From positions 1 to 32,546 of the forward strand of contig CALCSG010000553.1 of assembly GCA_937894085.1 (NCBI GenBank): a stretch of DNA of 32,546 nucleotides. The letters run 5' to 3'. The stretch comes from an uncultured Gammaproteobacteria bacterium (lineage in GTDB: Bacteria > Pseudomonadota > Gammaproteobacteria > GCA-001735895). The notes under the pieces were generated by a model. The model was not told the origin of the DNA, made no database searches, and saw nothing but the letters and a program-made list of their open reading frames with translations. A program made the position numbers and the translations under genes. This document shows positions 3,314-21,521 of this stretch, in pieces. Position 1 is the first letter of the stretch. Every line of letters begins with the position of its first letter.

Positions 3314-4219
3314 ATGTGGTTCCGTAATTTACAGATTTACCTACTATCAGAAACTTTTGAAGCGTCGGCAGAAGAGCTGCACGAGGCCCTGCTGGAAAAA
3401 GCTTTTAAACCCTGTCAGGGGCTGGATACATTTAGAGTGGGCTGGACAGCGCCACTGGGTAAGCACGGGGATCAGCTGGTGCATGCTACCAATGGACGCT
3501 TAATGTTATGTATGCGTCGTGAAGATAGAATTTTACCAGCCGCTGTTGTACGCGATGCGGTTGAAGAAAAAGTAGACGAAATTGAAGCTGCAGAAGCCCG
3601 CACAGTTGGCCGTAAAGAGAAAAGTGAGATTAAGGAAGAGGTTATCGTGGATTTTTTGCCACGCGCATTTACCAAATCCAGCCGCAGCTATGCGTATATT
3701 GATCCACAAAATAACTGGGTCATTTTAGACTGTACTACGGCAAATAAAGCCGAAGAGATTTTAAGCCTGATACGCGAGTCCCTTGGCTCATTTAAGATAA
3801 AGCCACTTGCTGTCAATAATGCGCCTTCTGCGGTAATGACAGACTGGGTTAAAAATAAAGCACCTGATGATTTGCTGGTTGAAGATGAATGCGAGCTTAA
3901 AGAGCCAGTTGAAAATGGCGGAGTGATTCGTATACGTGGTGTTGATCTGGGCAGTGACGAAGTCCAGCAGCACCTAAGTTCCGGTAAGGTTGTGTCAAAA
4001 TTAGCAATACAATGGCAGGAGCGCATTGCCTGTGTCCTGGTGGAAGATTTATCCATTAAAAGACTGAAATTTATGGATCTGGTAATGGAAGAAGCCGCTG
4101 ATACGGCGGCAGATGATGAAGTAATGCGATTCGATGCTGATTTTGCTTTGATGTCACTGGAAATTTCACGATTTATTCCAGCTTTATGTGAATATCTGGG
4201 TGGTGTTGATAAGAATTAA
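3314..4219 (+). CDS. rdgC: Recombination-associated protein RdgC
   Basis: DNA-binding ring protein of beta/gammaproteobacteria that restrains RecA-dependent recombination and is thought to protect DNA at the nucleoid. The 301-residue length is normal. The N-terminus MWFRNLQIYLL and internal blocks such as LPRAFTKSSRSYAYID, GGVIRIRGVDLGSDEV, GKVVSKLAIQWQERI and MRFDADFALMS follow the E. coli protein closely. The start is ATG 3314, after a leader with only a weak purine-rich box. Downstream, a MITE-like repeat separates the stop codon from a strong intrinsic terminator at 4463, so the insertion apparently landed in the original 3' untranslated region. Confidence 0.97.
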   Translation: MWFRNLQIYLLSETFEASAEELHEALLEKAFKPCQGLDTFRVGWTAPLGKHGDQLVHATNGRLMLCMRREDRILPAAVVRDAVEEKVDEIEAAEARTVGRKEKSEIKEEVIVDFLPRAFTKSSRSYAYIDPQNNWVILDCTTANKAEEILSLIRESLGSFKIKPLAVNNAPSAVMTDWVKNKAPDDLLVEDECELKEPVENGGVIRIRGVDLGSDEVQQHLSSGKVVSKLAIQWQERIACVLVEDLSIKRLKFMDLVMEEAADTAADDEVMRFDADFALMSLEISRFIPALCEYLGGVDKN

Positions 4220-4224
4220 TTTTA

Positions 4225-4447
4225 ATGGCTCTGAATGAAAATCATGTAATGTCGTCATTGCGTCCATTGGTTCGGTAAACGGTGCTCCATGCACCACTAC
4301 TCCCGCATGCTTTTAGCGGGAATCCATCGAACAGCAGTTATTTATTAGCGTAATTGCTTCAATTTATAATGGATTCCGGCCAAATGCGTGGCGGAATGAC
4401 GCCGATAGTAAACAGAAACTATCTACATGATACTCCTACAGAGCCAT
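4225..4447. repeat. MITE-like inverted-repeat element, copy A
   Basis: A 223-bp non-coding element bounded by terminal inverted repeats. The left end begins ATGGCTCTGAATGAAAATC (4225) and the right end finishes ATACTCCTACAGAGCCAT (4447). The left arm differs from the better conserved copy B (30411-30591) at one position in the outer 25 bases; the right arm differs at about four. The direct repeat TAATTTTA flanks the element at 4217-4224 and 4449-4456, as expected for an 8-bp target duplication. Inside are nested dyads containing CCCGCATGC, GCGGGAATCCAT and ATGGATTCCGG. Copy A carries about 42 extra bases (4260-4301) within the otherwise conserved GTCATTCCCGC motif, and that insert has its own small hairpin (GGTGC/GCACC). 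There is no transposase, so it is non-autonomous. Confidence 0.82.
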
Positions 4448-4462
4448 ATAATTTTAATATGA

Positions 4463-4495
4463 CAGGGTGCCAGCAGGCACCCTGCCTTCTTTTTA
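4463..4495 (+). terminator. Intrinsic terminator for rdgC
   Basis: A perfect 9-bp stem with arms CAGGGTGCC (4463-4471) and GGCACCCTG (4476-4484) has loop AGCA and is followed by CCTTCTTTTT. It is the first terminator after rdgC but lies beyond the inserted repeat 4225-4447. Confidence 0.88.
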
Positions 4496-4619
4496 GGTCA
4501 TTTATATAATAAAAATGGATTGTTTCAGGGCTTTTTACCTGGTTTGTGTTTTATTTTAGTCATAGACTTTTTATTAAATGACTTTTATGCTGGCTATAAC
4601 TTTTTGTATTTCTTAAGTT

Positions 4620-6764: not shown

Positions 6765-7013
6765 GTGCTTAGTTTTAATAAACATTTCGTATCTATGCAG
6801 TAATAATAAAGTCAAAAGACATTCACCACGAAGCCACGAAGTACACGAAGAAAAACAAATGAGCATAAAAAGGTAACCAGATAAATCAGCACCTATCATA
6901 ATTTTGAAAAAACTTATCTGCATCTGTGTGATTACCAAGGGATAGTGTCGGTCTAATTACCGAGCGACTTTGTCGTAAGTAGCGTATCAGCCAGTTGCTA
7001 CACTGGCTATGGT
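6765..7013. other. Intergenic region with short repeats
   Basis: No convincing gene was seen. It contains three CACGAAG heptamers at 6827, 6835 and 6844 and a small perfect hairpin with arms AGCCAGT (6989-6995) and ACTGGCT (7002-7008). No terminator for the upstream transglycosylase gene is evident. Confidence 0.5.
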
Positions 7014-7350: not shown

Positions 7351-7581
7351 ATGAAACAAAACATTACTTTATCCCTTGAAAAGGACATCATTCAAGGTGC
7401 TAAAGTGCTGGCAGCCAGAAAATCCACTTCAATCAGTGCATTGATAGCTGAAGAGCTTATTCGAATTGTGCAACAGGATAAGCGATACACACAAGCAAGG
7501 CTTGATGCGCTTGCTGATCTTGAACAAGGTTTTGAATTGGGTGGTAAACCTGCCAGTCGAGAATCACTTTATGAGCGATAA
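7351..7581 (+). CDS. VapB-type antitoxin (ribbon-helix-helix-like, DUF6364-like)
   Basis: A 76-residue protein starting MKQNITLSLEKDIIQGAKVL, the pattern of small ribbon-helix-helix DNA-binding antitoxins: a short beta strand (ITLSLEK), then helices. The charged C-terminal part (residues about 45-76) is the likely toxin-binding tail. The start ATG at 7351 follows an AGGAAAA box at 7340. It overlaps the downstream PIN toxin gene by 11 bp, which suggests translational coupling. The family name is a judgement from pattern; the pairing with a PIN protein makes the antitoxin role likely. Confidence 0.8.
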   Translation: MKQNITLSLEKDIIQGAKVLAARKSTSISALIAEELIRIVQQDKRYTQARLDALADLEQGFELGGKPASRESLYER

Positions 7582-7993
7582 GTTTTTTGTAGATACCAAT
7601 ATCCTCATATATGCCTATGATACGGAAGCTGAAAACAAACATTTGCGTTGCAAAAACATAATACGTGAACTTTGGAATGACGATAATGGAGTGATTAGTA
7701 CACAGGTCATGCAGGAATTCTACGTGAATGTCACCAGAAAAATTCCAACCCCACTGTCCTTAGAGCAAACCCGTAGAATATTGGCACAGTATGAGACCTG
7801 GCAAGTTGAAGTGATTGATGCTCCGTTAATAAATTTTGCCTCAAAAATACAGGAAAGAAACCGGTTATCATTCTGGGATTCTCTAATCATTGCTACCGCT
7901 ATCCAGGGAAATGTGAAAATTCTTTATAGTGAAGACTTGAATGTAGGACAAATAATTGAAGGGATTGAGATAGTTAACCCTATGCTTGCATAA
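7571..7993 (+). CDS. PIN-domain toxin (VapC-type ribonuclease)
   Basis: A 140-residue PIN-domain protein, probably an Mg2+-dependent RNase held inactive by the preceding antitoxin. The acidic active-site set is visible: Asp8 in FVDTNILIYAYD, Glu49 in MQEFYVN, Asp103 in FWDSLIIATA and Asp122 in YSEDLN. The frame is open further upstream to 7466, but that extension lies inside the antitoxin gene and lacks PIN features. The ATG at 7571 gives the normal N-terminus MSDKFFVDTN and an 11-bp overlap with the antitoxin gene. The cellular target (tRNA, rRNA or mRNA) cannot be told from the sequence. Confidence 0.9.
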   Translation: MSDKFFVDTNILIYAYDTEAENKHLRCKNIIRELWNDDNGVISTQVMQEFYVNVTRKIPTPLSLEQTRRILAQYETWQVEVIDAPLINFASKIQERNRLSFWDSLIIATAIQGNVKILYSEDLNVGQIIEGIEIVNPMLA

Positions 7994-8309: not shown

Positions 8310-9803
8310 TTAACTGGCATTTACCTGTGCGCTCATTGATAGTCTCATGGATGATCTTAAGTAGCGTGATAGAGTATCGATGCAAACATTTAACAGCGCA
8401 GTGATGGTGATTAACATCATGGCCCGATCGAGCCGGATATCCTGAATAGCACTGTCGATATAAAACCCCAGGGTGGCGATTCCTAAAATTCCCAGAATGG
8501 CTGTCTCGCGCAAAATAATTTCCCAGCGGTAAAACAGGAATGCCAGGAACTGGCCATAGATTCGAGGTACCACTTCGTAAAAATATCGATTGAAACCTTT
8601 TGCCGCATCCTGGCGTATAGGCAGAGCATCGCTATAACGACCCATCAGGTGAGCGATAATAGCCCCGTTATGCAGAGCCAGCGCAATGATAGCCGGTAAC
8701 ATTGATGGCCCCCACAGGGTCAATAGAATGAATGCAAGAATATATTCCGGTGTAGAACGCATGACTACCAGAAAAAGATGTCCCGCACTACGCGCAAATC
8801 GAGCAAAAAATAATTTAGAAATTAATGGAAACCATATAAGAGCAATAAATCCGGTCAGAATCAGGGCTAGCTGAGTTAATAATAAACTGTTAACAATACC
8901 GGGCAGAGCCTCGTTCATGAATAGTTCAGAAAACCAGTGCCAGAGTCCGTTTAAATCCTCTCCCCGACGTATCGGTAGAGGGATAATGTCATGGGTGAAA
9001 AATCTAATGACATTGTCAAATGAAATGCTGCTGTCATTGGCGATGATGAAAGGTGAAGCAACCAGGTACAGGGGTAACAGTTTCGGTCTAACCCAGTATT
9101 TGATGCCGGCAATTAACAGGTAAAAAAGAATTAATAAAGCCCAGACTTCTGAATACAGTCCTTCATAAAAGGCAGTACTCAGGTAATAACCTAATGTGGG
9201 CAGCCCGACAAAACCCAGCACGGCACTGGAACGTAAACCACATTCCAGGCGGTAACTGGTATAGGTGATAAAGTGTTGCCACAGGTCGGGTAATCTGGCG
9301 TAAAAAAAAGAAGAAGTAAGGCCTGCACTGTGGCGAATGTTGTCATATGCCCGACGATCACCTTCTTCCAGAATTTCTGCATACACTTTGGCAAAAGTGG
9401 CAGCATAGGGCAGACCAATGGCGAGCAATCCTGTCAACGGGTGTAAGCCGAATATTTGCAAAAAAATTAAAGCCCAGAATAATTCATGAACAGCACGAAC
9501 TAAAGCGCAGAGTATTCTAACCAGTCGAAAATGAAATAACTGTGCCAGGACAAAACCGCTGATGCATCCGGCCGAAACTCCGAGCATGGCAAAAGCGACG
9601 GTTTGCAATAGCGCATGTAACGGGTTTTCAATATTGAATAGTGACGGTGATAACAGGCCGGAAAACAATCGCCCCAGTTCAGACATCGGGTCATAGGTGT
9701 TTATCGACAGGTCTGCGAAAGGCAGGCAGGCCAGGGCTATGGCTATAAAAATCCAGCTTACTTTCCATCGGGCTGAACGTATATGGCTTAGACCTTTATT
9801 CAC
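8310..9803 (-). CDS. PhnE-like ABC transporter permease, two fused permease domains (putative selenium oxyanion importer)
   Basis: A 497-residue inner-membrane protein made of two consecutive binding-protein-dependent permease domains (about 1-255 and 285-497), each with several hydrophobic segments. Standard PhnE proteins are about 260 residues and dimerise; here both halves are one chain. Corresponding segments of the two halves can be matched: SYRLECGLRSSAVLGFVGLP with FYRWEIILRETAILGILGIA, and RAVHELFWALIFLQIFGLHP with RSTPEYILAFILLTLWGPSM. The start is GTG 9803, overlapping the ATPase gene by 8 bp, so translation is probably coupled. It is the last gene of the order binding protein, ATPase, permease. 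No carbon-phosphorus lyase or phosphonatase gene is present, while the neighbours are selenium genes, so selenate or selenite is a more likely cargo than phosphonate. Substrate is inferred. Confidence 0.85.
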   Translation of the reverse strand: MNKGLSHIRSARWKVSWIFIAIALACLPFADLSINTYDPMSELGRLFSGLLSPSLFNIENPLHALLQTVAFAMLGVSAGCISGFVLAQLFHFRLVRILCALVRAVHELFWALIFLQIFGLHPLTGLLAIGLPYAATFAKVYAEILEEGDRRAYDNIRHSAGLTSSFFYARLPDLWQHFITYTSYRLECGLRSSAVLGFVGLPTLGYYLSTAFYEGLYSEVWALLILFYLLIAGIKYWVRPKLLPLYLVASPFIIANDSSISFDNVIRFFTHDIIPLPIRRGEDLNGLWHWFSELFMNEALPGIVNSLLLTQLALILTGFIALIWFPLISKLFFARFARSAGHLFLVVMRSTPEYILAFILLTLWGPSMLPAIIALALHNGAIIAHLMGRYSDALPIRQDAAKGFNRYFYEVVPRIYGQFLAFLFYRWEIILRETAILGILGIATLGFYIDSAIQDIRLDRAMMLITITALLNVCIDTLSRYLRSSMRLSMSAQVNAS

Positions 9804-10446
9804 CGTAGAGTTCTAACAGGTCTTCTCGTTTGAGGTTTTTAGCGGCCTCATCAATAGTAATTCGTCCATGATCGAGGCCGATGATACGGTCGCAATAGGC
9901 CAGCGCCAGGTCAATATCGTGCATGGCAAGAACAACAGTGTCAAAGAGTCTGCATAATAGTGACATCACCAGTTTAGACTGTTGCTCATCAAGTGATGAA
10001 ACGGGCTCATCGGCCAGCAAAATATCGCCACCCTGCATAATCGCCCGTGCTATTGAAGTTCGTTGCTGTTGACCACCGGATAGTTGAGCGACCGGTTCGA
10101 ACAGTTTGTCGCTCAACTGCATTTCCTGCAGTATCTGTTCAACTTCAGCAACCGGCTTTTTAAGTGGTTTGATTAAATTGAGCAGGTTGTAGCCGACAGA
10201 TTGCCGACCCAGCTGGCCCATGTAGACATTGTGATATACCGAGAGACTGGCAACCAGCCCATAATCCTGTGGTACCAGCGCGATATCTTTCGGGCGTTGT
10301 TCATAAAGCAGTTTAATAAGTGTCGATTTACCGGAACCACTGTGCCCCACCAGTGCCAGCTTCTGGCCGGCAGGAATGTGCAGGGTAATATCAGTCAGCA
10401 CAATTTCATCTTTATACGAGGCATTGGCTGACTGTAGATTAAACAC
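9796..10446 (-). CDS. PhnC-like ABC transporter ATPase (putative selenium oxyanion importer)
   Basis: A 216-residue cytoplasmic ATPase subunit. Walker A is GHSGSGKST (residues 34-42), the Q-loop is VPQD (Gln60), the signature is LSGGQ (122-126), Walker B is ILLADE (142-147) and the H-loop histidine is in MHDID (His176). All catalytic features are intact, although the protein is shorter than typical PhnC (about 250-260). The start is GTG 10446, ten bases after the binding-protein stop codon. It overlaps the permease gene by 8 bp. It should power the importer formed with the flanking subunits. Confidence 0.9.
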   Translation of the reverse strand: MFNLQSANASYKDEIVLTDITLHIPAGQKLALVGHSGSGKSTLIKLLYEQRPKDIALVPQDYGLVASLSVYHNVYMGQLGRQSVGYNLLNLIKPLKKPVAEVEQILQEMQLSDKLFEPVAQLSGGQQQRTSIARAIMQGGDILLADEPVSSLDEQQSKLVMSLLCRLFDTVVLAMHDIDLALAYCDRIIGLDHGRITIDEAAKNLKREDLLELYGE

Positions 10447-10456
10447 CAGATCAGGA

Positions 10457-11338
10457 CTAGTCGATTAAGCCGATTTCCTTAGCGGTATCAAGGATGGGCT
10501 GGTAATCATTATTGCTGGCCTTGATGAAACTGCTGCGTGGAAAAGCTTCCAGTAGTGCCGGGTCTTTCATATCCAGCAGGGCTTGCTGAACACGCGCCTT
10601 AAAGCCTTCTCCCCATTCTTTATCAACATCTCCGCGAATGGACCATTGATAGTCAGGATAAGCGGGAGTTTTCCAGATTACAGAAACTTTACTGCCATCA
10701 ATTTTTCCGTCTTGCATTTCCTTTTCCCATACTTTGTAATTAGTTGCACCAACCTGATAAGCACCGGTTTGTACCAGTGCAATTGTGCGTGAGTGATTTC
10801 CACTGAACCCGACACGTGAAAAAGTATCATCCGGGGATTTTTTTAAATATTCACGAATATAAAACTCAGGCATTAATCGACCAGAAGTCGAACCTTTTGA
10901 GCCGAATGTGAAGGTTTTTCCGGCAATATCGGCGGGGAATGCTGCGGACTCTTTTAGCCCTGTACTGTGATGAGCAATAAAGTACGTTACGAACTCTGTG
11001 TCTTCCTTGCCCTGGGCAATGGCTTCAGAACCGGGCACCAGTAGACGCGCACGTACACCGGATAATCCGCCAAACCAGGCCAGTTGAATCTGATTATTTC
11101 TAAACGAAGTGATGGCCGCCGAATACGATTTGACCGGTACATATTTTACCGGAATACCCAGTTGCTGAGTAAGGTAGTCGGCTACTTTCCCAAATCGCTT
11201 GATTAACTGAGATTGATCCTGGTCGGGAATGGCAGAAAATACCAGTGTTTTTGGTGCACTGTATACCTGGGTAGAAAAAGAGATGGCCAGTATTGACAGG
11301 CAAAAAAACTGAGTAATACGATTAATTTTTGTTTTCAT
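10457..11338 (-). CDS. PhnD-family periplasmic binding protein (putative selenate-binding type)
   Basis: A 293-residue secreted binding protein. Residues 1-28 form a typical signal peptide with probable cleavage after VYSA. The mature part has the PhnD-family layout: VFSAIPDQDQSQL, then YLTQQLGIPVKYVPVKSY, NNQIQLAWFGG and FTFGSKGSTSGRLMPEF. Family members bind tetrahedral oxyanions such as phosphonate or phosphite. A subfamily found near selD genes is described in protein family collections as putative selenate-binding. This gene sits with senB, senA and selD, which supports that role, but the ligand is not proven. The ATG at 11338 has a strong AAGGAG box (11345-11350, minus strand), so this subunit is probably the most abundant product of the operon. 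Confidence 0.88.
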   Translation of the reverse strand: MKTKINRITQFFCLSILAISFSTQVYSAPKTLVFSAIPDQDQSQLIKRFGKVADYLTQQLGIPVKYVPVKSYSAAITSFRNNQIQLAWFGGLSGVRARLLVPGSEAIAQGKEDTEFVTYFIAHHSTGLKESAAFPADIAGKTFTFGSKGSTSGRLMPEFYIREYLKKSPDDTFSRVGFSGNHSRTIALVQTGAYQVGATNYKVWEKEMQDGKIDGSKVSVIWKTPAYPDYQWSIRGDVDKEWGEGFKARVQQALLDMKDPALLEAFPRSSFIKASNNDYQPILDTAKEIGLID

Positions 11339-11554: not shown

Positions 11555-12502
11555 TTATAATTTATTTAGAAGTTGCCGCCAGCCGTTTAGTTCATTATCT
11601 GTGGTGAATAATGGCTGTCTGGCGATACAGGCCTTTTCTAACTGGTTATAAAATTTGTGATCTGACTCTGCTTTTAGCAGAAGTTCTGATAATGCCTGCT
11701 CATCTTCAACCGGATAATATCCCGCATAGTCTTCTCCGAGTAAGCCGATCGAACCTTCTATATTGGAGGCGATGACCGGAATACCTGCCACTATTGCTTC
11801 CGAGATGACATTGGCTCCGCCTTCCATCCGTGAGGGTAGCAGCAGCACATGAGTGCGTTGATAAACCTGTCGAATTTTGTGATGTGCAATTTCCCCATGC
11901 CAGTGATAGCGGGAATTTATTCGCATCTCTGCTGTGGCCTGTTGTGCCCACTCAGCTGAATGCGCCTTGCCAAAATGATGAACCTGGATACGACTGCTGG
12001 CAGGCAGATTGCGTACTGCCATGGCAGGTCTCATGGGGTCTTTTTCTTCGCGTAAATGACCCATTACTGATACGTGAAAATAGCGTTTGTATGGATTACG
12101 TTTAGCGACAGGTTCGGCAGACTGATGAATGACATGCATTTTATGCCGTTGATCTGCGGGCAGGGTATTGTTGATTAAATCATGCAGCCCCACCAGTTGA
12201 TGTGCCAGTCGAATGGATTGCAAAGTGGGTTGCGGGTGACTATGGATGAAACGATAGGCATCAGTACCGGTGATAGCGACAATTAACGGCCGATGCGGGA
12301 ACCGTTCAGCAAACAGTTGAATGGAGTCGGCACTACGCCAGGCATGTAAAGCCAGCATCATATCAGCAGTCTGGTTTGTATAGGACACACTGATTTCGAC
12401 TGTATGTCCTAATGTCCTGAGTATATGTGCCCAACGGGCGGCAGTGGCCCGGTTGCCTGCTCTGGAGCGGGGTGGAGCAGGTGTGATAAGAAGTATGCGC
12501 AT
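11555..12502 (-). CDS. senB: Selenosugar synthase SenB (glycosyltransferase-like)
   Basis: A 315-residue GT-B-fold protein of the family first catalogued as a selenium-associated glycosyltransferase and later shown to be SenB, which forms a carbon-selenium bond by joining selenophosphate to a UDP-sugar. The N-terminus MRILLITPAPPRSRAGNRAT carries the SRxGNR segment typical of this family. The C-terminal half has the nucleotide-sugar binding motif PSRMEGGANVISEAIVAG (Glu227 and Glu235) and GIPVIASNIEGS. The frame extends upstream to 12541, but the ATG at 12502 gives the conserved N-terminus. It is divergent from senA with 121 bp between the starts. The assignment rests on motif pattern plus the senA/selD context. 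Confidence 0.9.
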   Translation of the reverse strand: MRILLITPAPPRSRAGNRATAARWAHILRTLGHTVEISVSYTNQTADMMLALHAWRSADSIQLFAERFPHRPLIVAITGTDAYRFIHSHPQPTLQSIRLAHQLVGLHDLINNTLPADQRHKMHVIHQSAEPVAKRNPYKRYFHVSVMGHLREEKDPMRPAMAVRNLPASSRIQVHHFGKAHSAEWAQQATAEMRINSRYHWHGEIAHHKIRQVYQRTHVLLLPSRMEGGANVISEAIVAGIPVIASNIEGSIGLLGEDYAGYYPVEDEQALSELLLKAESDHKFYNQLEKACIARQPLFTTDNELNGWRQLLNKL

Positions 12503-12623
12503 TGTTTTATTATTAACCTTACCTTCGGCTAACCATATCATAAATAATCGTCAGGATGACATCCGTTCCACAGCATGGGACAATGGCTTTCATACTTTTA
12601 GCCAACAAATTTTAAAAAGCTGT
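12503..12623. promoter_or_regulatory. Divergent senB/senA promoter region
   Basis: These 121 bp separate the start codons of senB (minus) and senA (plus), so both promoters should lie here. Overlapping short dyads occur at GTCA-GGA-TGAC (12550-12560) and GGAT-GAC-ATCC (12554-12564), near the middle. GGCTAA (12527-12532) and TTAGCC (12598-12603) form a widely spaced inverted pair. No consensus promoter could be fixed with confidence. Confidence 0.4.
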
Positions 12624-13925
12624 ATGGATAAACTGAATCCCATCGTTATCGCTGAACAGGCGCAGGATGCACATTGTCGCACATTAGCATTAATCGAAGG
12701 ACTGGATGCCGAACAGTTAATGGGGCCGTTGCTGGCAACGGTAAACCCGTTGCGCTGGGAAATAGGGCATGCAGCATATTTTTATGAATACTGGGTCCTG
12801 TGCCATCACCTGCAGCAACCATCGATTCGTGAAGATTCTGATGATTTGTATGATTCAATCACTATCGCCCATGATGATCGCTGGAATTTAGCGTTACCTG
12901 AACTGTCAGAAACATTGAATTATATGCAGACTGTGCTGGAAAATATAAAGCAATGTCTTGCTGGCGGAGAAGATGCCAGGCGCGATTACCTGGCGTTATA
13001 CGCTGTATTTCATCACGATATGCATAACGAAGCCTATACCTATACCCGGCAAACCCTGAATTACCCGACTCCTGATTATGGCGGGGATAGCAGTAACAAT
13101 TATCAGGCCGGTGCGCTACCGGGTGATGTGCAAATACCCGGTGGACGCTTTAAGTTAGGGGCAACAGCAGAGGATGGTTTTGTTTTTGATAATGAGAAAT
13201 GGGCGCATGAAGTCGATATAAAACCATTTGGCATTGCAAAAGCAGCGGTCAGTAATGCTGATTTTTTGAAATTTGTGGAAGCAGGTGGCTATAACAATAA
13301 ACAATACTGGCTGGATGAAGGCTGGAAATGGCGCGAAAAATCAAACCTGGCGCATCCTGTGTACTGGCGTAATACTTCATCAGGCTGGGATATAAAGCAG
13401 TTTGATCAATGGAACCCGATGCCGGTGAATGCAGCAATCATTCATGTAAGCTGGTTTGAAGCACAGGCTTACTGTCGTTGGGCCGGAAGACGCTTGCCGG
13501 GCGAAGCGGAATGGGAAGTGGCAGCTTCAGCAGAAGCAAGTCTGGATGGAAAAAAATTATCGGCCAGTAAACGACACTTTCCCTGGGGAGATGAAGCTCC
13601 CCGTGCTGATCAGGCTAACCTGGACGGATACGCACTCGGAACAGTGGATGTTGCTGCATTTCCAGCCGGTGACTCGGCTTTTGGCTGCCGACAGATGATC
13701 GGCAATGTATGGGAATGGACAGAGGACAGCTTTAATCCCTATCCGGGATTTAAAGCGGATATGTACCAGGATTATTCGCAACCTTTATTCGGCATTACCA
13801 AAGTTTTACGTGGAGGGGCCTGGCCCACACGTGGCAGAATGATTAGAAATACCTGGCGCACCTACTATGGCCCCGATAGAAATGATGTTTTTGCCGGTTT
13901 TCGTACCTGTGCCCTGAATGAGTAG
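12624..13925 (+). CDS. senA: Selenoneine synthase SenA (EgtB-like)
   Basis: A 433-residue iron enzyme of the EgtB/OvoA/SenA superfamily. SenA couples the selenosugar from SenB to hercynine and leads to selenoneine. The N-terminal DinB-like domain has the three iron-ligand histidines: His49 in EIGHAAYFYEYW and the HX3HXE motif HHDMHNE (His130, His134). The C-terminal formylglycine-generating-enzyme-like domain (about 165-433) shows HVSWFEAQAYCRWAGRRLP, GNVWEWTEDSF and LRGGAW. The frame is open to 12444, but that part runs through senB; the ATG at 12624 starts the conserved domain, although no good Shine-Dalgarno is present. It is called SenA rather than ergothioneine EgtB because of the adjacent senB and selD and the absence of egtA, egtC and egtE. 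The sequence alone would allow EgtB. It overlaps egtD by 8 bp. Confidence 0.88.
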   Translation: MDKLNPIVIAEQAQDAHCRTLALIEGLDAEQLMGPLLATVNPLRWEIGHAAYFYEYWVLCHHLQQPSIREDSDDLYDSITIAHDDRWNLALPELSETLNYMQTVLENIKQCLAGGEDARRDYLALYAVFHHDMHNEAYTYTRQTLNYPTPDYGGDSSNNYQAGALPGDVQIPGGRFKLGATAEDGFVFDNEKWAHEVDIKPFGIAKAAVSNADFLKFVEAGGYNNKQYWLDEGWKWREKSNLAHPVYWRNTSSGWDIKQFDQWNPMPVNAAIIHVSWFEAQAYCRWAGRRLPGEAEWEVAASAEASLDGKKLSASKRHFPWGDEAPRADQANLDGYALGTVDVAAFPAGDSAFGCRQMIGNVWEWTEDSFNPYPGFKADMYQDYSQPLFGITKVLRGGAWPTRGRMIRNTWRTYYGPDRNDVFAGFRTCALNE

Positions 13926-14904
13926 CAGACCATTGAGAAAAAATAAAATACAGTTTCATGATTTACATACCAGTCGCAACGAATTCGCCAGCGATGTTTT
14001 AAAGGGGCTGAGTGTTCGCCCGGCATCGATACCACCGAAATATTTTTACGATGCCAAAGGCTCAAAATTATTTGATGCCATTACACAATTACCTGAATAT
14101 TATCCAACTCGCACCGAGATAGATCTTTTATCAAATAACGCAGCACAAATAGCCCGACACGTTGGAACCGGAAGTTTACTGGTTGAGCCGGGTGGTGGTA
14201 GTTGTGCCAAAGTACATATTTTACTGGAAGGACTGAAACCCCGGGCATACGTGCCGATGGATATTTCCAGGGATCACTTGCAGCTGGCGGCAGAAGAGCT
14301 GGCTATTGCCTTTCCATGGCTGGAAATCCATGCTGCCTGTACCGATTTTACGCAGGAAATGTCATTACCGCCGAGTGCGCCCAGGGGCACACATGTCGCG
14401 TTTTTTCCGGGTTCCAGTATAGGTAATTTTGATCCTGATGCTGCGGTCGTATTTTTACAGGCAATAGCTGAATTAGTGGGACCGGGAGGCTACCTGTTAA
14501 TTGGTGTAGATCTGAAAAAAGACAAGGCAATACTGGAAGCGGCTTATGATGATTCAGCTGGCATAACGGCTTCATTTAATTTGAATTTACTGTCGCGTAT
14601 AAATCACGAGTTAAATGCTAATTTTGATTTAACAAAATGGCGACATAAAGCGTTATATAACGAACAGGTTGGTCGTATTGAAATGCATCTGGTAAGTCAG
14701 CAGGATCAAACTGTGGAAATCAATGAGGATTCTTTTAGTTTTGTTGAAGGTGAAACTATTCATACCGAAAATTCGTATAAATATACCAGTGATGAATTTA
14801 TCAGGCTGGCTTCGAAAGCCGGTTTTCAATCGGATGAGTTATGGATAGATGGAAATCGTTTATTCAGTGTGCATCTGTTCAGGGTTAATGATTTGCAGCG
14901 CTAA
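13918..14904 (+). CDS. egtD: L-histidine N-alpha-methyltransferase EgtD
   Basis: A cytoplasmic SAM-dependent enzyme that trimethylates histidine to hercynine, the acceptor in ergothioneine and selenoneine synthesis. It has 328 residues, near the usual 320-330. The family start PPKYFYDAKGSKLFDAITQL and EYYPTRTE (residues 39-67) are present. The SAM-binding loop is LLVEPGGGSCAKV (about 87-99), followed by FPGSSIGNFDP and GGYLLIGVDLKKD. The start ATG 13918 lies inside the end of senA, an 8-bp overlap that implies translational coupling. Its place between senA and the selD fusion makes hercynine supply for selenoneine its evident job. Confidence 0.96.
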   Translation: MSSRPLRKNKIQFHDLHTSRNEFASDVLKGLSVRPASIPPKYFYDAKGSKLFDAITQLPEYYPTRTEIDLLSNNAAQIARHVGTGSLLVEPGGGSCAKVHILLEGLKPRAYVPMDISRDHLQLAAEELAIAFPWLEIHAACTDFTQEMSLPPSAPRGTHVAFFPGSSIGNFDPDAAVVFLQAIAELVGPGGYLLIGVDLKKDKAILEAAYDDSAGITASFNLNLLSRINHELNANFDLTKWRHKALYNEQVGRIEMHLVSQQDQTVEINEDSFSFVEGETIHTENSYKYTSDEFIRLASKAGFQSDELWIDGNRLFSVHLFRVNDLQR

Positions 14905-14956
14905 CAATTGATAAAATTCCAGGGTAAAGTTCCGGTCAAATAAACAGATATAAACA

Positions 14957-17218
14957 ATGAAAAGTAATAATTCTCCCGTAGTAAAAGATCTGGTGCTGAT
15001 TGGTGGCGGTCATGCGCATGTTGCTGTGTTAAAACGTCTAGGCATGCAACCTGTCCCGGGGTTAAGAATTACCCTGGTTACACGCGATATTCATACACCA
15101 TATTCCGGCATGTTGCCGGGTTATGTAGCCGGTCATTATAGTTATGATGATTGTCATATTGATCTTGGTCCGCTGGCAAGATTTGCCGGAGCACGTCTAT
15201 ATCATGCACCGGTAACAGGCCTTGATATCAAAAATAAACAGGTGCTGGCTGCGGGTCGGCCAGCTATCAATTACGATCTACTTTCCATTAACACCGGCTC
15301 AAGACCCGATAGTGTCAATATTCCGGGTGTTGATGAATTTGCCATAGCAGCTAAACCCATCGATATCTTTTTAACAAAATGGGAGGCGCTGATCGAGCGC
15401 GTAAGCAATAGCCAGGGTGAATTTAAAGTCGTCGTAGTGGGCGGTGGAGCCGGTGGTGTCGAACTGGCATTATCCACACAGCACCGTTTACAAAACATGT
15501 TACGTGAGCAGGGTGACGATCCTCAACGATTGAGTTATACCCTGTTAACGCAAAGTGATCGTATCATGCATATGCATAATGGCGGAGTGCGGGACCGTTT
15601 TGAGCGCATATTTAGTGAGCGTGATATCTCTATTAAAGTTAGAAGTAGAGTGGCTGAAGTTAAAGCCGATCAGGTATTGCTGGATGATGGCACTGTATTT
15701 TCTACTGATGCGATTATATGGGTGACTACGGCATCCGCCCCTGCCTGGCCTGCTGAAGCGGGACTTTCCGTCGATGAAAATGGTTTCATCCGGGTCGATA
15801 AAAACCTGCAATCACTATCACACGAAGGTATTTTCGCAGCGGGTGATATTGCTTCGCTGAAAGATCCCAGGCCAAAATCCGGTGTTTTTGCGGTCCGTCA
15901 GGGACCGGTTTTAGTGCATAACCTTAAAGCTGCTGCGACTCACAAAAGGTTAAGGCCATATCGACCGCAAAAGAATTTTCTGGGACTGATTAGTACCGGG
16001 GACAAATATGCTATCGCATCACGCGGGAATTTTTCGTTTGAATCAGCCTGGTTGTGGAAAGTTAAAGACTGGATTGATGTGCAGTTCATGAGAAAATTTA
16101 ATGAATTGCCTGACATGGATGAACAGGATAATCCCCGCTTTGCCTCGGGTATAGCCGATGCGGATGCGATTAAGGAGCTTTCAACGCTGGCAATGCGCTG
16201 TGGTGGTTGCGGTGCCAAAGTGGGTGCCACCATTTTATCCAGGGTCATGCAAAGGTTACCCGATGAAAAACGTGATGATGTATTGATCGGCAGAGATTCA
16301 CCGGATGACTGTGCCATGCTGGCAGTACCACCAGGCAAGGTCATGGTACAAAGTGTGGATTATTTTCGCGCTTTTATCGAAGATAGCTATACATTCGGGG
16401 CCATAGCGGCTAACCATGCACTTGGAGATGTATTTGCGATGGGTGGAGAAGCTCAGTCGGTACTGGCTATTGCGACGGTTCCCTACGGTCGTGAACGGGT
16501 GGTGGAAGAAACATTATATGATGTGATGGCTGGAGCCATGTCAATAATTCAACCCAGTGGAGCGGTATTAGCTGGTGGACATTCCAGTGAAGGGGCCGAA
16601 CTTGCTTTTGGTTTGACGGTGAACGGCCTGATCGACCCGAACAGAGTCTGGCGTAAGAGCGGATTACAACCGGGTGATGCAATTATTTTAACCAAGGCTA
16701 TCGGCACTGGTACCTTATTTGCTGCAGAAATGCGCGGTAAAGCGAAAGGCCGTTGGGTTGATGCTGCCATACAGTCCATGCTGGTTTCCAGTCAACAGGC
16801 CGCTGAATGCCTGCAGCGGTTTAATGCCACGGCCTGCACAGATCTGACCGGCTTTGGTATCATCGGGCACCTGATCGAAATGACAAAAGCTTCTCAGGTT
16901 GATGCAGAGATTTATATGGATAACTTGCCATTACTGGATGGAGCAATGGAAACTGTGGCTGCCGGTATCCTGTCTTCGTTACAGCCTGCTAATCTTCGCT
17001 TGCGTCGGGCCATTCATGATATTGAAAATGCAGCAAAGCATCCAGCTTTTCCACTGCTATTCGATCCGCAAACCGCTGGCGGTTTACTGGCCGGTGTACC
17101 TGCTAAAAAAGCAGAAGCCTGCGTAGCAGAACTAACAAAACTGGGGTATACAAACACCCGCATAATTGGTAGTGTAAACGATTTATCTGATGAGCAGGCA
17201 CCTGTGCAAATAAAGTAG
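14957..17218 (+). CDS. selD: Fused NADH-type FAD oxidoreductase - selenide, water dikinase (SelD/SenC)
   Basis: A 753-residue two-domain protein. Residues about 10-385 form an NDH-2-like pyridine-nucleotide oxidoreductase: the FAD dinucleotide loop is LIGGGHAHVAVL (14-25), the NAD(P) loop is VVGGGAGGVELAL (160-172), and FAAGDIAS (293-300) is the second FAD contact. Residues about 408-753 are SelD, which makes selenophosphate from selenide and ATP. The SelD active site is CGGCGAK, with Cys418 and Lys421 matching Cys17 and Lys20 of E. coli SelD. The residue is cysteine (TGC), not selenocysteine. SPDDCAML and GGHSSEGAE follow as expected. Such fusions are known, and the oxidoreductase part is thought to supply reduced selenium. 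In a sen cluster the SelD protein is also called SenC. It lies 52 bp after egtD, probably in the same operon. Confidence 0.95.
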   Translation: MKSNNSPVVKDLVLIGGGHAHVAVLKRLGMQPVPGLRITLVTRDIHTPYSGMLPGYVAGHYSYDDCHIDLGPLARFAGARLYHAPVTGLDIKNKQVLAAGRPAINYDLLSINTGSRPDSVNIPGVDEFAIAAKPIDIFLTKWEALIERVSNSQGEFKVVVVGGGAGGVELALSTQHRLQNMLREQGDDPQRLSYTLLTQSDRIMHMHNGGVRDRFERIFSERDISIKVRSRVAEVKADQVLLDDGTVFSTDAIIWVTTASAPAWPAEAGLSVDENGFIRVDKNLQSLSHEGIFAAGDIASLKDPRPKSGVFAVRQGPVLVHNLKAAATHKRLRPYRPQKNFLGLISTGDKYAIASRGNFSFESAWLWKVKDWIDVQFMRKFNELPDMDEQDNPRFASGIADADAIKELSTLAMRCGGCGAKVGATILSRVMQRLPDEKRDDVLIGRDSPDDCAMLAVPPGKVMVQSVDYFRAFIEDSYTFGAIAANHALGDVFAMGGEAQSVLAIATVPYGRERVVEETLYDVMAGAMSIIQPSGAVLAGGHSSEGAELAFGLTVNGLIDPNRVWRKSGLQPGDAIILTKAIGTGTLFAAEMRGKAKGRWVDAAIQSMLVSSQQAAECLQRFNATACTDLTGFGIIGHLIEMTKASQVDAEIYMDNLPLLDGAMETVAAGILSSLQPANLRLRRAIHDIENAAKHPAFPLLFDPQTAGGLLAGVPAKKAEACVAELTKLGYTNTRIIGSVNDLSDEQAPVQIK

Positions 17219-17220
17219 TC

Positions 17221-17313
17221 AAAACTTAAAAGGTGCTATGTTTGCAATGGATTCCATCCTCAGGTCCGTTGTTGCGATTTCTTACGGTAGAGTGACTAGC
17301 GTGGCGAAATCGC
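17221..17313. repeat. MITE fragment plus REP-like dyad
   Basis: Bases 17221-17255 match the inner part of MITE copy B (30485-30520): about 30 of 36 positions agree, with one gap, and the substitutions are all transitions. Neither terminal repeat is present, so this is a relic. Just after it, GCGATTTC (17274-17281) and GAAATCGC (17306-17313) form an 8-bp inverted repeat, and the text around the second arm (GGCGAAATCGCGCCTACC) looks like a REP-type unit. Confidence 0.55.
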
Positions 17314-17364
17314 GCCTACCAGCTGACCTGTCTCGTGTCGTCTATTTATGCGCTCAGTACAGGA

Positions 17365-17394
17365 CACTACACTACACTACACTACACTACACTA
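17365..17394 (+). repeat. (CACTA)6 microsatellite
   Basis: Six perfect tandem copies of CACTA occupy 30 bp and end ten bases before the start codon of the exonuclease gene, directly abutting its GAAGG ribosome-binding box (17395-17399). Perfect 5-bp repeats of this kind can change length by slippage. Confidence 0.97.
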
Positions 17395-17404
17395 GAAGGC
17401 AGGG

Positions 17405-17917
17405 ATGATGTTTAGCAGGGAATTTATTCCTATTATTATCGACATAGAAGCTTCCGGTTTCGATCCACTCAGTTACCCGATAGAAGTAGGTCTCGTACTC
17501 GAAAATGGAACCCGCTATTCTACTCTGGTTAAACCCGTTACGGAATGGCAACACTGGGATAGTAGCGCAGAGAGACTTCACCATATACAACGCGAAACTT
17601 TGCAACAATATGGCAAGCCGGTGATGGAAGTTGCGCTTAAATTGAACCAGTTACTGGATGGTAAAACGATTTATTCTGACGGTTGGGTAGTTGATAAACC
17701 GTGGCTGGATAATCTGTTTTTTCGGGCGGGCATTGATCGTTCATTTTTTATCAGTCCTCTTGAGATGATACTGAATGAACAGCAGATGGAGTACTGGCAT
17801 GAAATTAAAAATACGGTGATTGCTGAAACAGACCTGCAACGTCATCGTGCAAGTAGTGATGCCTGGGTCATTCAGCAAACTTTTGTACGCACTTTAGCTT
17901 TACTGAACACTGCTTAA
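17405..17917 (+). CDS. DEDDh-type 3'-5' exonuclease (RNase T / DnaQ-like)
   Basis: A 170-residue protein with the exonuclease fold of DnaQ and RNase T. Motif I is IIDIEASGFDP (Asp13, Glu15). Motif II is probably in YSDGWVVDKPW (Asp92 or Asp97). Motif III is HRASSDAW (His147, Asp152), the H-x4-D spacing of DEDDh enzymes. It probably trims DNA or RNA 3' ends, but the substrate cannot be read from the sequence. Two ATGs (17405, 17408) are possible; GAAGG at 17395-17399 serves either. The (CACTA)6 tract directly upstream could alter expression. There is no clear terminator after it; TTAGCCTG/CAGGTTAA (17930-17949) is a weak hairpin followed by TTTT. Confidence 0.85.
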   Translation: MMFSREFIPIIIDIEASGFDPLSYPIEVGLVLENGTRYSTLVKPVTEWQHWDSSAERLHHIQRETLQQYGKPVMEVALKLNQLLDGKTIYSDGWVVDKPWLDNLFFRAGIDRSFFISPLEMILNEQQMEYWHEIKNTVIAETDLQRHRASSDAWVIQQTFVRTLALLNTA

Positions 17918-17976
17918 AATTTCTGACTGTTAGCCTGCAGCCAGGTTAATTTTCCGGTTTTTATATTTCAGTTAAG

Positions 17977-19167
17977 TTATGCCAGCTCAAGGTGCGCAAG
18001 CATTTCTTTACATAACGCAATGTTAACCTGTTTTCCATACCTTTTTTCAGGATCACTGATCAGGTTCCTGGCGACTTCCAGTTTATCTGTTTCTATCGCC
18101 AGTCTGGCGTAATAAACGGTTTGTGATAAATCGGCTAAAATAAATTGTGGACTGATTTGCTGACATTTTTCAATGAAAAATAATGCTCTGCCATAACGTC
18201 TCTCTTCATTTAACATTTCAATAATTAAACGGCCAACACAAAGCTGGGTTCTTGATGCTCCCCACTTCTGGATATAGTCAAATATTTCTTCAAATTTTAT
18301 GGCTGCTGTTTGCAGGTAATCATATCTTTCCAGTAACATTAAAACAGCTTCACTATCCCTGTGTGTGGTCACGGCCTTATAAACTTTACCCATAAAATGA
18401 TCATATTCACGCTGGCTTTCTTTAAGAATTTTTTCCTGTTCTATTTCGTTTCTTCTGCGATAAGACATGGATGCCGATTTTCCATGCTTTTTCTGTAACT
18501 TCATTTCTTCTATTTCTGCTTCCAGTTCTTCCCTTACTTCCTCCTTACGCTCTTTAAGCCATATTAATCCAAATACATAACCCGCAATACCTCCTGTGAC
18601 ATGAGCAACCACATTAATTCCTGCAAAATCGTTAGAAGTGAACATTTCCCAGCTATCGAGGCCAATGTAGGCAATGGCCAGTATCCAGGCTGGAACATAA
18701 AAAGTTTTCCAGAAAATGATATACCACCAGAAGACCTTGATTCTGGCCTGCGGCATCATAAATGCCGATAGTCCAATCATGCCCATTACAATGCCGGAAA
18801 GACCTAATGAAGGTAATGGCTCTGAGCTTCCAATAAAGGTTGATATTGAATAACTGACTCCGACCACAATAGAGATAAATAGCATTAGTGCGATATAACG
18901 AACAGTACTGCCTATTAAAATCTCTAAAGCCGGTGCAAAAGCAAGAAAAAATATCAGGTTACCGATTAAATGTGTCCAGCCGCCATGTGCAACAGAAGCG
19001 GTAATCATGGTAAACGGATTCCATGAAGCGGGGTAATACATCAGGCTTTCGGTGATGGTAGAAGTCAGCTGAAAAGAGAAAACCAGAACGCATAAAAAAA
19101 CAGTGATATAAGTGACTACCGGAGGCTTGGCCAGAGTCAGGGCGGTACTGTAGGGAAAAATAATCAC
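17977..19167 (-). CDS. Rhomboid-family intramembrane serine protease with C-terminal cytosolic extension
   Basis: A 396-residue protein. The first 205 residues form a rhomboid core with about six membrane segments: HGGWTHLIGN (61-70), the catalytic GLSG (Ser124) and AHVTGGIAGYVFG with the catalytic His189. It is therefore a likely active protease that cuts substrates within the membrane. Residues about 205-265 are highly charged (KERKEEVREELEAEIEEMK) and probably a coiled coil; the remaining 130 residues are helical with a repeat-like look and no domain I can name. The substrate is unknown. It is on the strand opposite the exonuclease gene and 104 bp after the GGDEF/EAL gene on the same strand. 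Confidence 0.9.
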   Translation of the reverse strand: MIIFPYSTALTLAKPPVVTYITVFLCVLVFSFQLTSTITESLMYYPASWNPFTMITASVAHGGWTHLIGNLIFFLAFAPALEILIGSTVRYIALMLFISIVVGVSYSISTFIGSSEPLPSLGLSGIVMGMIGLSAFMMPQARIKVFWWYIIFWKTFYVPAWILAIAYIGLDSWEMFTSNDFAGINVVAHVTGGIAGYVFGLIWLKERKEEVREELEAEIEEMKLQKKHGKSASMSYRRRNEIEQEKILKESQREYDHFMGKVYKAVTTHRDSEAVLMLLERYDYLQTAAIKFEEIFDYIQKWGASRTQLCVGRLIIEMLNEERRYGRALFFIEKCQQISPQFILADLSQTVYYARLAIETDKLEVARNLISDPEKRYGKQVNIALCKEMLAHLELA

Positions 19168-19271
19168 TTGGAATCAGATATATAAATAATTTTATGGTAG
19201 TTGATCAGAGATTGTAAATGTTGCATTCACCGAAAAACAGAGAAATATTTTATTCTGGCTTAGCTTTGACG

Positions 19272-21521
19272 CTACACAGGTAAATTTTGACAGGGCTTCT
19301 TTTCAAGTGTTTTAACCCGAGCCGGCGCTCCAAACAGGTAACCCTGCGAAAAGTTAAATCCAGCATCCATGACTTTTTGTAGCAATTCTTCGGTTTCAAT
19401 ACCTTCTGCCACCAGGTTGTAGCCCAACCCGGTTAACATGCCTGCCATTTCTCCAACCATTTTAGCCAGGCGTTCATCCATCATTCCCTGGATTAACGAG
19501 ATATCAAATTTGACGATATCGACAGGCATACTGGTTAGATAGCGTAAAGAGGAATAACCACTGCCAAAATCGTCGAGTGCGACTTTAAAGCCCAGTTCGC
19601 CAAGCATCTTCAAATTACCGACGGCCGTATTCAGCTGAGTAATTAATGAAGTTTCAGTGACTTCTATGACGATAGTGTGACGTCGAGTGAACTCAGAAAG
19701 AGGAATTAACCACTCAATTACATCCTGATGAGCGACCGATTCGGCAGATAGATTGATTGATATTCCGCAGCCTTCAGCAATAAATTGTGACTTCAAGTCT
19801 TCTAACACCTTAGCGATAATAGCCCGATCCATTTCTGTTTCCATGTGGCGCATGGTGACGACAGGAAAAATATGAGATGGAGGTATTAATTCCCCTTCAT
19901 GACGAATACGCAACAGGGCTTCAAAGTAAGCAGTTTCCCGGGAGTGAGAATTAACGATTGGCTGGTAATGGATTTCAATGCCGGTGCCATGCGCTACCGC
20001 ATCATAAACAGCATTACTCATCCAGTTTGAAAAAACTGCCTCGGTACCATCGGCCATATCATCACTGAATAAAACCGGTCGTGTATTGCCGGGTCTTTTG
20101 GCCTGATAAACAGCGATATCTGCCTGCCACTGCAGCTTATCCAGTTTTTCCAGTTCATCTGCCTGACAATGAGAAATCCCGCAACTTATACGTACAGCCT
20201 CCTTAATACCCAGATCGCTAAAGTCGTAGTTTTTAATGACTTCGGCGCAACGTTTAGCCACTTCCAGTTCTTTTTCTACGTTGCTACCAATAATGATGGC
20301 GGCAAATTCATCACCACCAATGCGATATAAATATTCGGCTTTACGCATAGACTGCTGAATGCATGCACTGATGGCGATTAACACTTCATCACCCACCTGG
20401 TGACCGTAAGAGTCATTGATGGCTTTAAAATGATTTACGTCGAAAAGAAGCAGGCAAATACCCATGCGATGATGGCTCAAAAGTTGTTTTGCTTTACTCC
20501 ATTCTAATTCAAAGGCACGACGATTAAGCATGCCAGTAAGAGAATCATGGTGAGCGAGTTTCCATAACTCCTTATTTTTATCATCCAGATCTTCGTGTGC
20601 TTTTTCCAGTTTGTGATGGTATTGATTTAATGATGTCCTTACTTTTTCTAATTCTGCGACCGGAAAGAATGAGTTAATACCCCCGGATAAAGCCCCGGGA
20701 TTAGAATATCTCAATTTGTCGATATAGGCTGAAATTTCTACCAATGGTTTTTCCAGTAGAAACACCATTAAAAAATAGAAAAATAAACACAATATACCAA
20801 CGAGAGTAGCTACCTGAATGACAGTTTCTTTGACAATTTGCATCATTGTTTCAGCTTCGGGGCTTGATTTAAGTTTGAAGCTGATAAATGAAGAGGCTCT
20901 GGATAAGGGTATTTCAGTATTTTCAGGTAATGATATTTTTATTGTGCTGGAGTCCAGGTAATGAAACTGAAATTGTTTTATCAATGTTTTAATTAAGGGT
21001 AAATGTACTCCCAGATAACCTTCCAGTTTAGCTTTATCTCCGTCCCGTTTAATAGGTAGATAATAGATGAGACTCTCGCTATTACCCCTTGAATAGAGTA
21101 AAGGAGTTAATGATTTGACATTTATTCTGGCTGGGAATTTGCTCTCAGATAAGATCGCAAGTGCATTTCCTTGAGTGTCGAATACTTCGGCAGCTTCTAT
21201 ATACTCTGGCAAAATTCCGGAATTTAGCATTCGCAGTTTACGCCAGTAAGAATAATAGGAAGTGTTACCCAGTTGCTGAAAAATCTCATCCCAATTTGAA
21301 ATGTCTTTGGATATGCGGTTAATCGAATCTGTTAAAAGCTCAATAGCATGCTCAATCTCCTGATTCGCGGCAATTAGATTATTCGCATGAATATCTGACC
21401 TGGCCCTTTCTATGCTGTTCAAAGCATAGACTCCAATACCGGTGAAGAAACTGGCAACTAAAAATAAAAATACCAGCGCATAGCCACTGATTGATAAAGG
21501 GAATAGAGATTTTTTGAACAT
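19272..21521 (-). CDS. Membrane GGDEF-EAL cyclic-di-GMP enzyme with CHASE4-like sensor
   Basis: A 749-residue inner-membrane signalling protein. Two membrane segments (about 13-33 and 236-256) bracket a periplasmic CHASE4-like sensor region with the typical NWDEIFQQL (76-84) and VFDTQGNAL (113-121). A linker leads to the GGDEF domain (about 318-485, RIGGDEF at 400-406) and the EAL domain (about 505-738, EALLR at 534-538, NLSAE at 590, VIEVTE at 618, DDFGSGYSS at 650). Both catalytic signatures are intact, so it could make and degrade cyclic-di-GMP. The inhibitory RxxD site before GGDEF is RKAE here, so product inhibition may be weak. It starts 8 nt after the stop codon of the hydrolase gene, so the two are probably one operon. 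Confidence 0.93.
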   Translation of the reverse strand: MFKKSLFPLSISGYALVFLFLVASFFTGIGVYALNSIERARSDIHANNLIAANQEIEHAIELLTDSINRISKDISNWDEIFQQLGNTSYYSYWRKLRMLNSGILPEYIEAAEVFDTQGNALAILSESKFPARINVKSLTPLLYSRGNSESLIYYLPIKRDGDKAKLEGYLGVHLPLIKTLIKQFQFHYLDSSTIKISLPENTEIPLSRASSFISFKLKSSPEAETMMQIVKETVIQVATLVGILCLFFYFLMVFLLEKPLVEISAYIDKLRYSNPGALSGGINSFFPVAELEKVRTSLNQYHHKLEKAHEDLDDKNKELWKLAHHDSLTGMLNRRAFELEWSKAKQLLSHHRMGICLLLFDVNHFKAINDSYGHQVGDEVLIAISACIQQSMRKAEYLYRIGGDEFAAIIIGSNVEKELEVAKRCAEVIKNYDFSDLGIKEAVRISCGISHCQADELEKLDKLQWQADIAVYQAKRPGNTRPVLFSDDMADGTEAVFSNWMSNAVYDAVAHGTGIEIHYQPIVNSHSRETAYFEALLRIRHEGELIPPSHIFPVVTMRHMETEMDRAIIAKVLEDLKSQFIAEGCGISINLSAESVAHQDVIEWLIPLSEFTRRHTIVIEVTETSLITQLNTAVGNLKMLGELGFKVALDDFGSGYSSLRYLTSMPVDIVKFDISLIQGMMDERLAKMVGEMAGMLTGLGYNLVAEGIETEELLQKVMDAGFNFSQGYLFGAPARVKTLEKKPCQNLPV

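Follow-up and report, generated by a model that had tools for sequence, protein, structure and literature searches.

In which form selenium reaches selenophosphate synthetase (SelD) in vivo, and from which donor, is described as incompletely elucidated in the available text of a 2026 review (PMC13188914). In vitro assays of SenC and SenB were run anaerobically with Na2Se and DTT supplied, so that, as far as the accessible part of that report goes (PMC10891094), those assays leave the cell's own reductant unassigned. A gene coding for an NDH-like flavoprotein fused to SelD, present in a predicted selenoneine (sen) cluster of an uncultured gammaproteobacterium, raises the question of whether one polypeptide might both reduce selenium and activate it for this pathway, which is summarised in PMC9814287 and in the accessible text of PMC10702425. 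We analysed this gene within its window, i.e., the whole 32,546-nucleotide stretch of contig CALCSG010000553.1, and in related genomes.

That the fusion type is known, as a preliminary description of this DNA had stated, is borne out by the literature, since such proteins were published in 2008 (available text of PMC2398784). These Ndh-SelD (NADH-SPS) fusions, their CxxC motif and their frequency are covered by Zhang & Gladyshev 2008 (PMC2398784) and Mariotti 2015 (PMC4561486), in whose available passages they appear as widespread in bacteria and present in some protists. The idea of a reductant function for the N-terminal half is not new either, as an NADH oxidoreductase that reduces a selenium compound for SelD was proposed in 2008 (accessible text of PMC2432076). 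We did not find the fusion named as a recurrent SenC or sen cluster component in the available portions of the literature covered, including PMC11448449, PMC5322559, PMC5029168 and PMC9312934; Kayrouz 2022 lay outside this scope, and we do not claim absence from print. The protein of the window belongs to a fusion family already described, and its setting is both recurrent and useful.

The sen locus and its fused SelD

The relevant genes, domains and motifs of the window are as follows.

8310..9803, minus strand: ABC transporter permease, PhnE-like, 497 aa (profile search)
9796..10446, minus strand: ABC transporter ATPase, PhnC-like (profile search)
10457..11338, minus strand: putative selenate/selenite ABC transporter substrate-binding protein (TIGR04553, 381 bits, cut-off 250)
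11555..12541, minus strand: senB, selenosugar synthase (TIGR04348, 413 bits, cut-off 300; likely start near 12502)
12625..13925, plus strand: senA, selenoneine synthase (NF041186, 495 bits, cut-off 420; likely start ATG 12625)
13918..14904, plus strand: egtD, histidine N-alpha-trimethyltransferase, hercynine supply (TIGR03438, 411 bits, cut-off 291)
14957..17218, plus strand: NDH-like flavoprotein/SelD fusion, a fused SenC-type selenophosphate synthetase (ATG start, 753 aa, single ORF)
14987..16099, plus strand: N-terminal FAD/NAD(P)H oxidoreductase domain, aa 11-381, NDH-2-like fold (TIGR03169)
15002..15019, plus strand: FAD dinucleotide-binding loop GGGHAH, aa 16-21 (H19 in 101/101 and H21 in 100/101 sampled fusions)
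15440..15463, plus strand: NAD(P)-binding loop GGGAGGVE, aa 162-169 (sequence and alignment of 101 fusions)
15875..15901, plus strand: KSGVFAVRQ, aa 307-315, at the position of the NDH-2 quinone motif (alignment)
16193..17110, plus strand: SelD (selenide, water dikinase) domain, aa 413-718 (TIGR00476)
16199..16219, plus strand: SelD selenium loop CGGCGAK, aa 415-421, with CxxC and Lys421 (alignment)

The gene order on the plus strand is senA-egtD-fusion, with the end of senA overlapping the start of egtD and 52 bp separating the end of egtD from the fusion gene. On the minus strand, senB and then an ABC operon of the selenate type run divergently down to position 8310, an arm absent from the preliminary description. 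Genes for SenA, SenB and SelD/SenC are thus grouped within positions 11555-17218. The longest senA ORF begins at a GTG codon, at 12444. A promoter scan returned 18 candidates, vs 19.2 in shuffled sequences, and is uninformative; a terminator scan returned 14, vs 9.3 (sd 3.0), and does not enter our argument. Tandem CACTA-like repeats are found at 17360-17395, between the fusion gene and a downstream exonuclease-like gene, and a PemK/MazF-like toxin gene and a PIN-domain gene, at 30855-31232 and 7466-7993, are likely parts of toxin-antitoxin systems.

EgtD is present as a single over-cut-off copy in the genome, and besides SenA no match to the SenA model falls in the EgtB-like range, any others being weaker than E 2e-26, the value of the last match listed. 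For these reasons, hercynine is probably made here for selenoneine. As SenA exceeds its cut-off and egtD is in the operon, we favour selenoneine over ovoselenol as the predicted product. No SelD other than the fusion exceeds the cut-off in this genome, which also codes for one SelU, and profile searches yielded no SelA, SelB or YqeB over cut-off. This gene content suggests that the fusion most likely supplies the synthesis of selenoneine as well as that of tRNA selenouridine. A role restricted to selenoneine was considered for this genome and discarded, given the presence of SelU and the absence of a second over-cut-off SelD. In another genome of the same genus (G154; locus L195, G154:C220), we observed an extra stand-alone SelD of the CxC type, though SelU and SelA were not found there.

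Both halves of the protein are recognized by curated profiles on one chain, in the order TIGR03169 then SelD. The N-terminal half is a full-profile match to TIGR03169 (Nterm_to_SelD) over aa 11-381, with 491 bits for a cut-off of 310, and aa 413-718 match TIGR00476 (selD) with 291 bits for a cut-off of 125. We rejected a loss of SelD function, which the related family TIGR04369 (fusion_not_SelD) would suggest, because the score of 473 bits is below the curated cut-off of 700 and the catalytic residues are intact. To evaluate conservation, we used 101 sampled fusions, namely 22 from the class, including that of the window, and 79 of 80 named loci that are the best 80 of 579 confirmed ones; the truncated fusion of L026 was left out of alignment A1, yet is counted among the 101. 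The FAD loop has the pattern G16xG18(H19)xH21 and the NAD(P) loop the pattern G162xG164xxG167 with E169. G16, G18, H19, G162, G164, E169 and D297 are invariant in the sample, as are C418, K421, D451, D468 and D491 of the SelD half; D629 is conserved in 100/101 with one gap, and only G167, the last Gly of the NAD(P) loop, varies more (83/101). The claim of the preliminary description that both dinucleotide loops and the Cys418/Lys421 pair are intact is therefore confirmed, these elements being near-invariant among the 101 fusions. The invariance of Cys415 and the loss of the NDH-2 quinone motif, both described below, had gone unnoticed.

With its loop Cys and Lys and its conserved Asp residues, the C-terminal half also has the SelD fold, as aa 456-753 match SelD structures 3u0o/2zod with a Z score of 35.1 and 2.5 A over 288 residues. 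An AlphaFold2 model of the whole chain, from a 21-row alignment, has a mean pLDDT of 90.4 and a pTM of 0.90, the latter of which suggests a defined rather than floppy domain arrangement. The selenium loop is the weak part of this model, with a pLDDT of only 56 for the block aa 411-420.

Acceptor site of the flavoprotein half and CxxC loop of SelD

The closest solved folds to aa 8-385 are those of NDH-2 (5kmq, 4nwz; Z ~42), followed by sulfide:quinone reductase (SQR; Z ~35) and FSP1 (Z ~32). A HMMER alignment with NDH-2 of C. thermarum (5kmq) places SGVFAVRQG opposite TAQIAIQHG. The latter contains AQxAxQ, the quinone-site motif of NDH-2. This motif is missing from the window protein, in which both of its glutamines are replaced, by V310 and R314, to read GVxAVR. 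V310 and R314 are each found in 100/101 sampled fusions, and K307 in 98/101. Since GVxAVR is near-invariant in place of AQxAxQ, the N-terminal half is, on alignment evidence, not an ordinary quinone reductase. The acceptor site appears to have been rebuilt for something other than quinone, plausibly an anion, which near-invariant K307 and R314 would suit.

The catalytic cysteines that SQR has beside its FAD (Cys128, Cys160 and Cys356 in PDB titles) are not found in the window protein, whose N-terminal domain harbours only one Cys, C66. No column of this domain has Cys in more than 51 of the 101 sampled fusions. Unlike glutathione or thioredoxin reductases, the domain thus has no conserved cysteine of its own. 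It ends in a Trp- and Lys-rich helix in the model (aa 364-382), with W367 in 98/101 and K370 in 101/101 sampled fusions, at the place of the C-terminal helix of NDH-2.

In the SelD loop, Cys415 and Cys418 form a CxxC motif (C415-G-G-C418), which is present in 101/101 sampled fusions vs 0/27 stand-alone SelDs of the class. The loops of the latter correspond to x..C.CK and are of the CxC type. This set of 27 excludes L171, a fusion cut by a contig end that looks like a stand-alone SelD with CxxC, as well as L095, which is partial, and L094 (genome G134), whose stand-alone SelD gene has one in-frame TGA. The latter protein is probably a selenocysteine-containing SelD, and SelA is present in that genome. 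Another observation is the presence of two SelDs within 20 kb in L188 (genome G218; 2966-6796 and 16479-19888), with a stand-alone CxC SelD between two SenA-like genes and a CxxC fusion next to senB, 11 kb away.

In a quick LG+G4 tree of SelD, with stand-alone sequences from this class only and without L134, which was too short, a single branch (support 100) separates the fusions from the 27 stand-alone SelDs. Since every sampled fusion lies on the same side of this branch, the CxxC motif may be a mark inherited within the lineage rather than a functional fit to the NDH half. Where NDH and SelD are coded by separate genes, in G107 and G038, SelD has an ordinary CxC loop, so that a SelD does not require CxxC to function together with the reductase. 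For both reasons, we do not take the motif to prove that SelD is coupled to the NDH half.

Distribution of the fusion and its association with sen genes

We surveyed 229 genomes of the class, counting genes over profile cut-offs. TIGR03169 proteins were found in 27 of them, with 22 fused, SelD in 49, SelU in 35 and SelA in 8. SenA is present in 14 genomes, SenB in the same 14, and fused SelD in 12 of these. In 11 of the 12 genomes that have both, the fusion and sen genes lie side by side, and chance adjacency was rejected on this basis; in the exception, G042, the fusion is found elsewhere. As for the other two SenA genomes, G107 has a stand-alone SelD and, ~1.7 kb beyond selD in the sen cluster (L189), a separate TIGR03169-like gene, and in G183, which harbours SenA and SenB and is 87% complete, SelD was not found. 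A similar split arrangement occurs in G038 (L194), with three adjacent, separate genes for SelU, SelD and NDH. SenA is present in 12/22 fusion genomes vs 1/27 genomes with stand-alone SelD only (Fisher p 7e-5), and the difference holds by family, with 10/17 vs 1/22 (p 3e-4).

In the other 10 fusion genomes of the 22, SenA is missing; seven of them have SelU instead and three have SelA. Because of these ten, the fusion is, judging from gene content, a general selenophosphate module that often, but not only, serves as the SenC of sen clusters. The preliminary description had linked it to selenoneine. This link is real and recurrent, as the 12 of 14 SenA genomes indicate, but in the window's genome it does not extend to selenoneine alone, given SelU and the sole SelD. 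In 5 of the 12 genomes with both fusion and SenA (G127, G055, G121, G126 and G124), no SelU, SelA, SelB or YqeB was found over cut-off, and SenB/selenoneine is therefore the only known use of selenophosphate there.

The named loci, i.e., the best 80 of 579, whose shares are not population shares, include Marinobacter, Halomonas, Halospina, Comamonadaceae and Rhodospirillaceae, as well as Cyanobacteria, Acidobacteriota and Binatota. In the stored flanks of these best 80 loci, we identified SenB in 17, SenA in 9, SelU in 15 and SelA in 4; 45 have none of the four in the stored flank, some contigs being short. Eight fusions without sen genes (L140, L143, L146 and relatives) adjoin genes for a TPR protein and a putative aminopeptidase (PF10023), and in L140, L143 and L146 no selenophosphate user was detected in the flank. 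Six loci of a Comamonadaceae-type group (L126, L127, L130, L134, L136 and L149) harbour a second, separate TIGR03169-like gene closely downstream of the fusion; the copy of L127 has 375 aa, and the group shares 23-30% identity with the N domain of the window protein. Near some fusions, we also found proteins in which a VTT-domain (DedA/TVP38-like) membrane part is fused to a MerA/glutathione-reductase-like flavoprotein (L126:7786-9966, L113:14246-16387 and relatives). Members of their wider family, found in 12 loci, may serve to provide selenite or to reduce it.

In a tree of the 101 fusions, all 28 sen-labelled rows belong to one 48-row group, with an SH-aLRT of 93, below the value of 95 that earns a star. 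The sen label changes 9 times vs 23.0 times in shuffles; at least 7 changes are required by starred branches. In this scoring, 24 of the 101 fusions are without a sen label because of short flanks, and G042, with SenA on another contig, counts as 'no sen'. The sen-linked fusions as one clean clade are only partly in agreement with these 9 changes and this support.

A proposed reductase and activator on one chain

We propose, with slightly more belief than doubt, that in this sen cluster the part of SenC is taken by the fusion, as a selenium reductase and activator on a single chain. The N-terminal half would transfer electrons from NAD(P)H to FAD, and from there most likely to selenium in an oxidised form, retained at or close to the SelD loop, for instance selenium derived from selenodiglutathione and bound to Cys415/Cys418 as S-Se-S or Cys-SeH. 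Selenide would be released where SelD uses it, and the SelD half would convert it with ATP to selenophosphate, destined for SenB/SenA, with hercynine from EgtD, to make selenoneine, and for SelU to make tRNA selenouridine. We infer NAD(P)H as the donor, selenium as the acceptor, CxxC as the hand-over site for selenium or electrons, and channelling between the two halves; selenium reduction by the flavin half would also limit free selenide. This reading is supported by the scores of both halves over curated cut-offs, the near-invariant catalytic residues in the 101 sampled fusions, co-location with sen genes, the association of CxxC with the fusion, the non-quinone acceptor motif and the unfused NDH genes near selD in G107 and G038. 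We count against it that the N domain lacks a conserved Cys and that 45 of the best 80 of 579 loci have no partner gene in the flank. CxxC as the hand-over site is further weakened by the split NDH and CxC SelD of G107 and G038 and by the single lineage formed by the fusions in our sample.

Flavoenzymes are known to reduce selenite and selenodiglutathione with NADPH. On general redox grounds, the reducing power of NADH does not suffice to form free selenide from elemental selenium, which is for this reason the least promising of the three substrates put forward in the preliminary description. Elemental selenium would thus be a poor candidate, and selenodiglutathione or protein-bound Cys-Se species are likelier. 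A bolder version, which we find rather doubtful, is that the fusion is a loading machine that never releases selenide. CxxC would take zero-valent selenium from selenodiglutathione as S-Se-S and swing to the flavin, reduction by NAD(P)H/FADH2 would take place in a pocket lined by GVxAVR, and the loop would swing back to the ATP site. One subclade would then have become the usual SenC, giving many SelD genomes without genes for Sec, SeU or Se-cofactor their only known selenium use.

Alternatively, the flavin half might keep Cys415 and Cys418 reduced so that SelD works in oxygen, with no reduction of a selenium substrate. We regard such a protective role as unlikely: the strict association of CxxC with the fusion in our sample agrees with it, as does a GOS study in whose available text the fusion is described as abundant in marine samples, with CxxC in every case (PMC2398784), but thioredoxin could also reduce a loop disulfide, the usual relay would call for a disulfide that the N domain lacks, and the split NDH genes near CxC-type SelDs in G107 and G038 suggest a role beyond this CxxC. 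It is less probable still that the N-terminal half is a quinone- or membrane-linked flavoprotein that, in the manner of NDH-2 or SQR, still trades electrons with quinones, be it to draw on quinol or to oxidise excess selenide as a safety valve. The ranking of the closest folds, the position of the Trp- and Lys-rich helix and the existence of an SQR structure solved with sodium selenide (PDB title, 3sz0) point in this direction, but the replacement of AQxAxQ by GVxAVR and the missing SQR-type cysteines argue against it. Finally, the N-terminal half might regulate SelD according to its NAD(P)H/FAD state, or dock a selenium carrier, selenium receiving no net electrons in either case. Proteins of this fold do have diverse acceptors; however, both dinucleotide loops are kept in the sampled fusions, G167 being the residue that varies, as expected for turnover, and we hold a sensor or scaffold role to be very improbable.

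A protein that probably brings its reductase along, in a pathway leading to a single product that is easy to measure, represents a clean system for the question of selenium delivery to SelD, and its recurrent sen role makes the selenium route to the activating enzyme testable. The five genomes of the class with SenB as the only detected selenophosphate user would show whether selenoneine explains lone SelD genes.

Compared with known systems, the window protein shares its domain order and the CxxC of its SelD loop with the published Ndh-SelD fusions. In the available text, the latter are tied to Sec/SeU genomes, whereas the window fusion belongs to a selenoneine cluster in a genome in which neither SelA nor SelB was found over cut-off. 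It resembles the SenC of the Variovorax paradoxus senABC cluster by co-location with senA and senB and by its predicted role, the provision of selenophosphate to SenB. The engineered V. paradoxus SenC appears to be single-domain, since in the accessible text its residue numbers go up to 316 and it was modelled on 2yye (PMC11929427), whereas the SenC-type protein of the window is fused to a flavoprotein. With E. coli and Aquifex SelD (3u0o, 2zod, 2yye), it has in common the fold of aa 456-753 (Z ~35, 30-32% identity) and the catalytic Cys and Lys, and it differs from them by its CxxC loop and N-terminal flavoprotein, the stand-alone SelDs of the class being of the CxC type. With NDH-2 (C. thermarum 5kmq/4nwz; YjlD), it shares the two dinucleotide sites and, over aa 8-385, the fold, but where NDH-2 has the quinone motif AQxAxQ, the fusion has GVxAVR.
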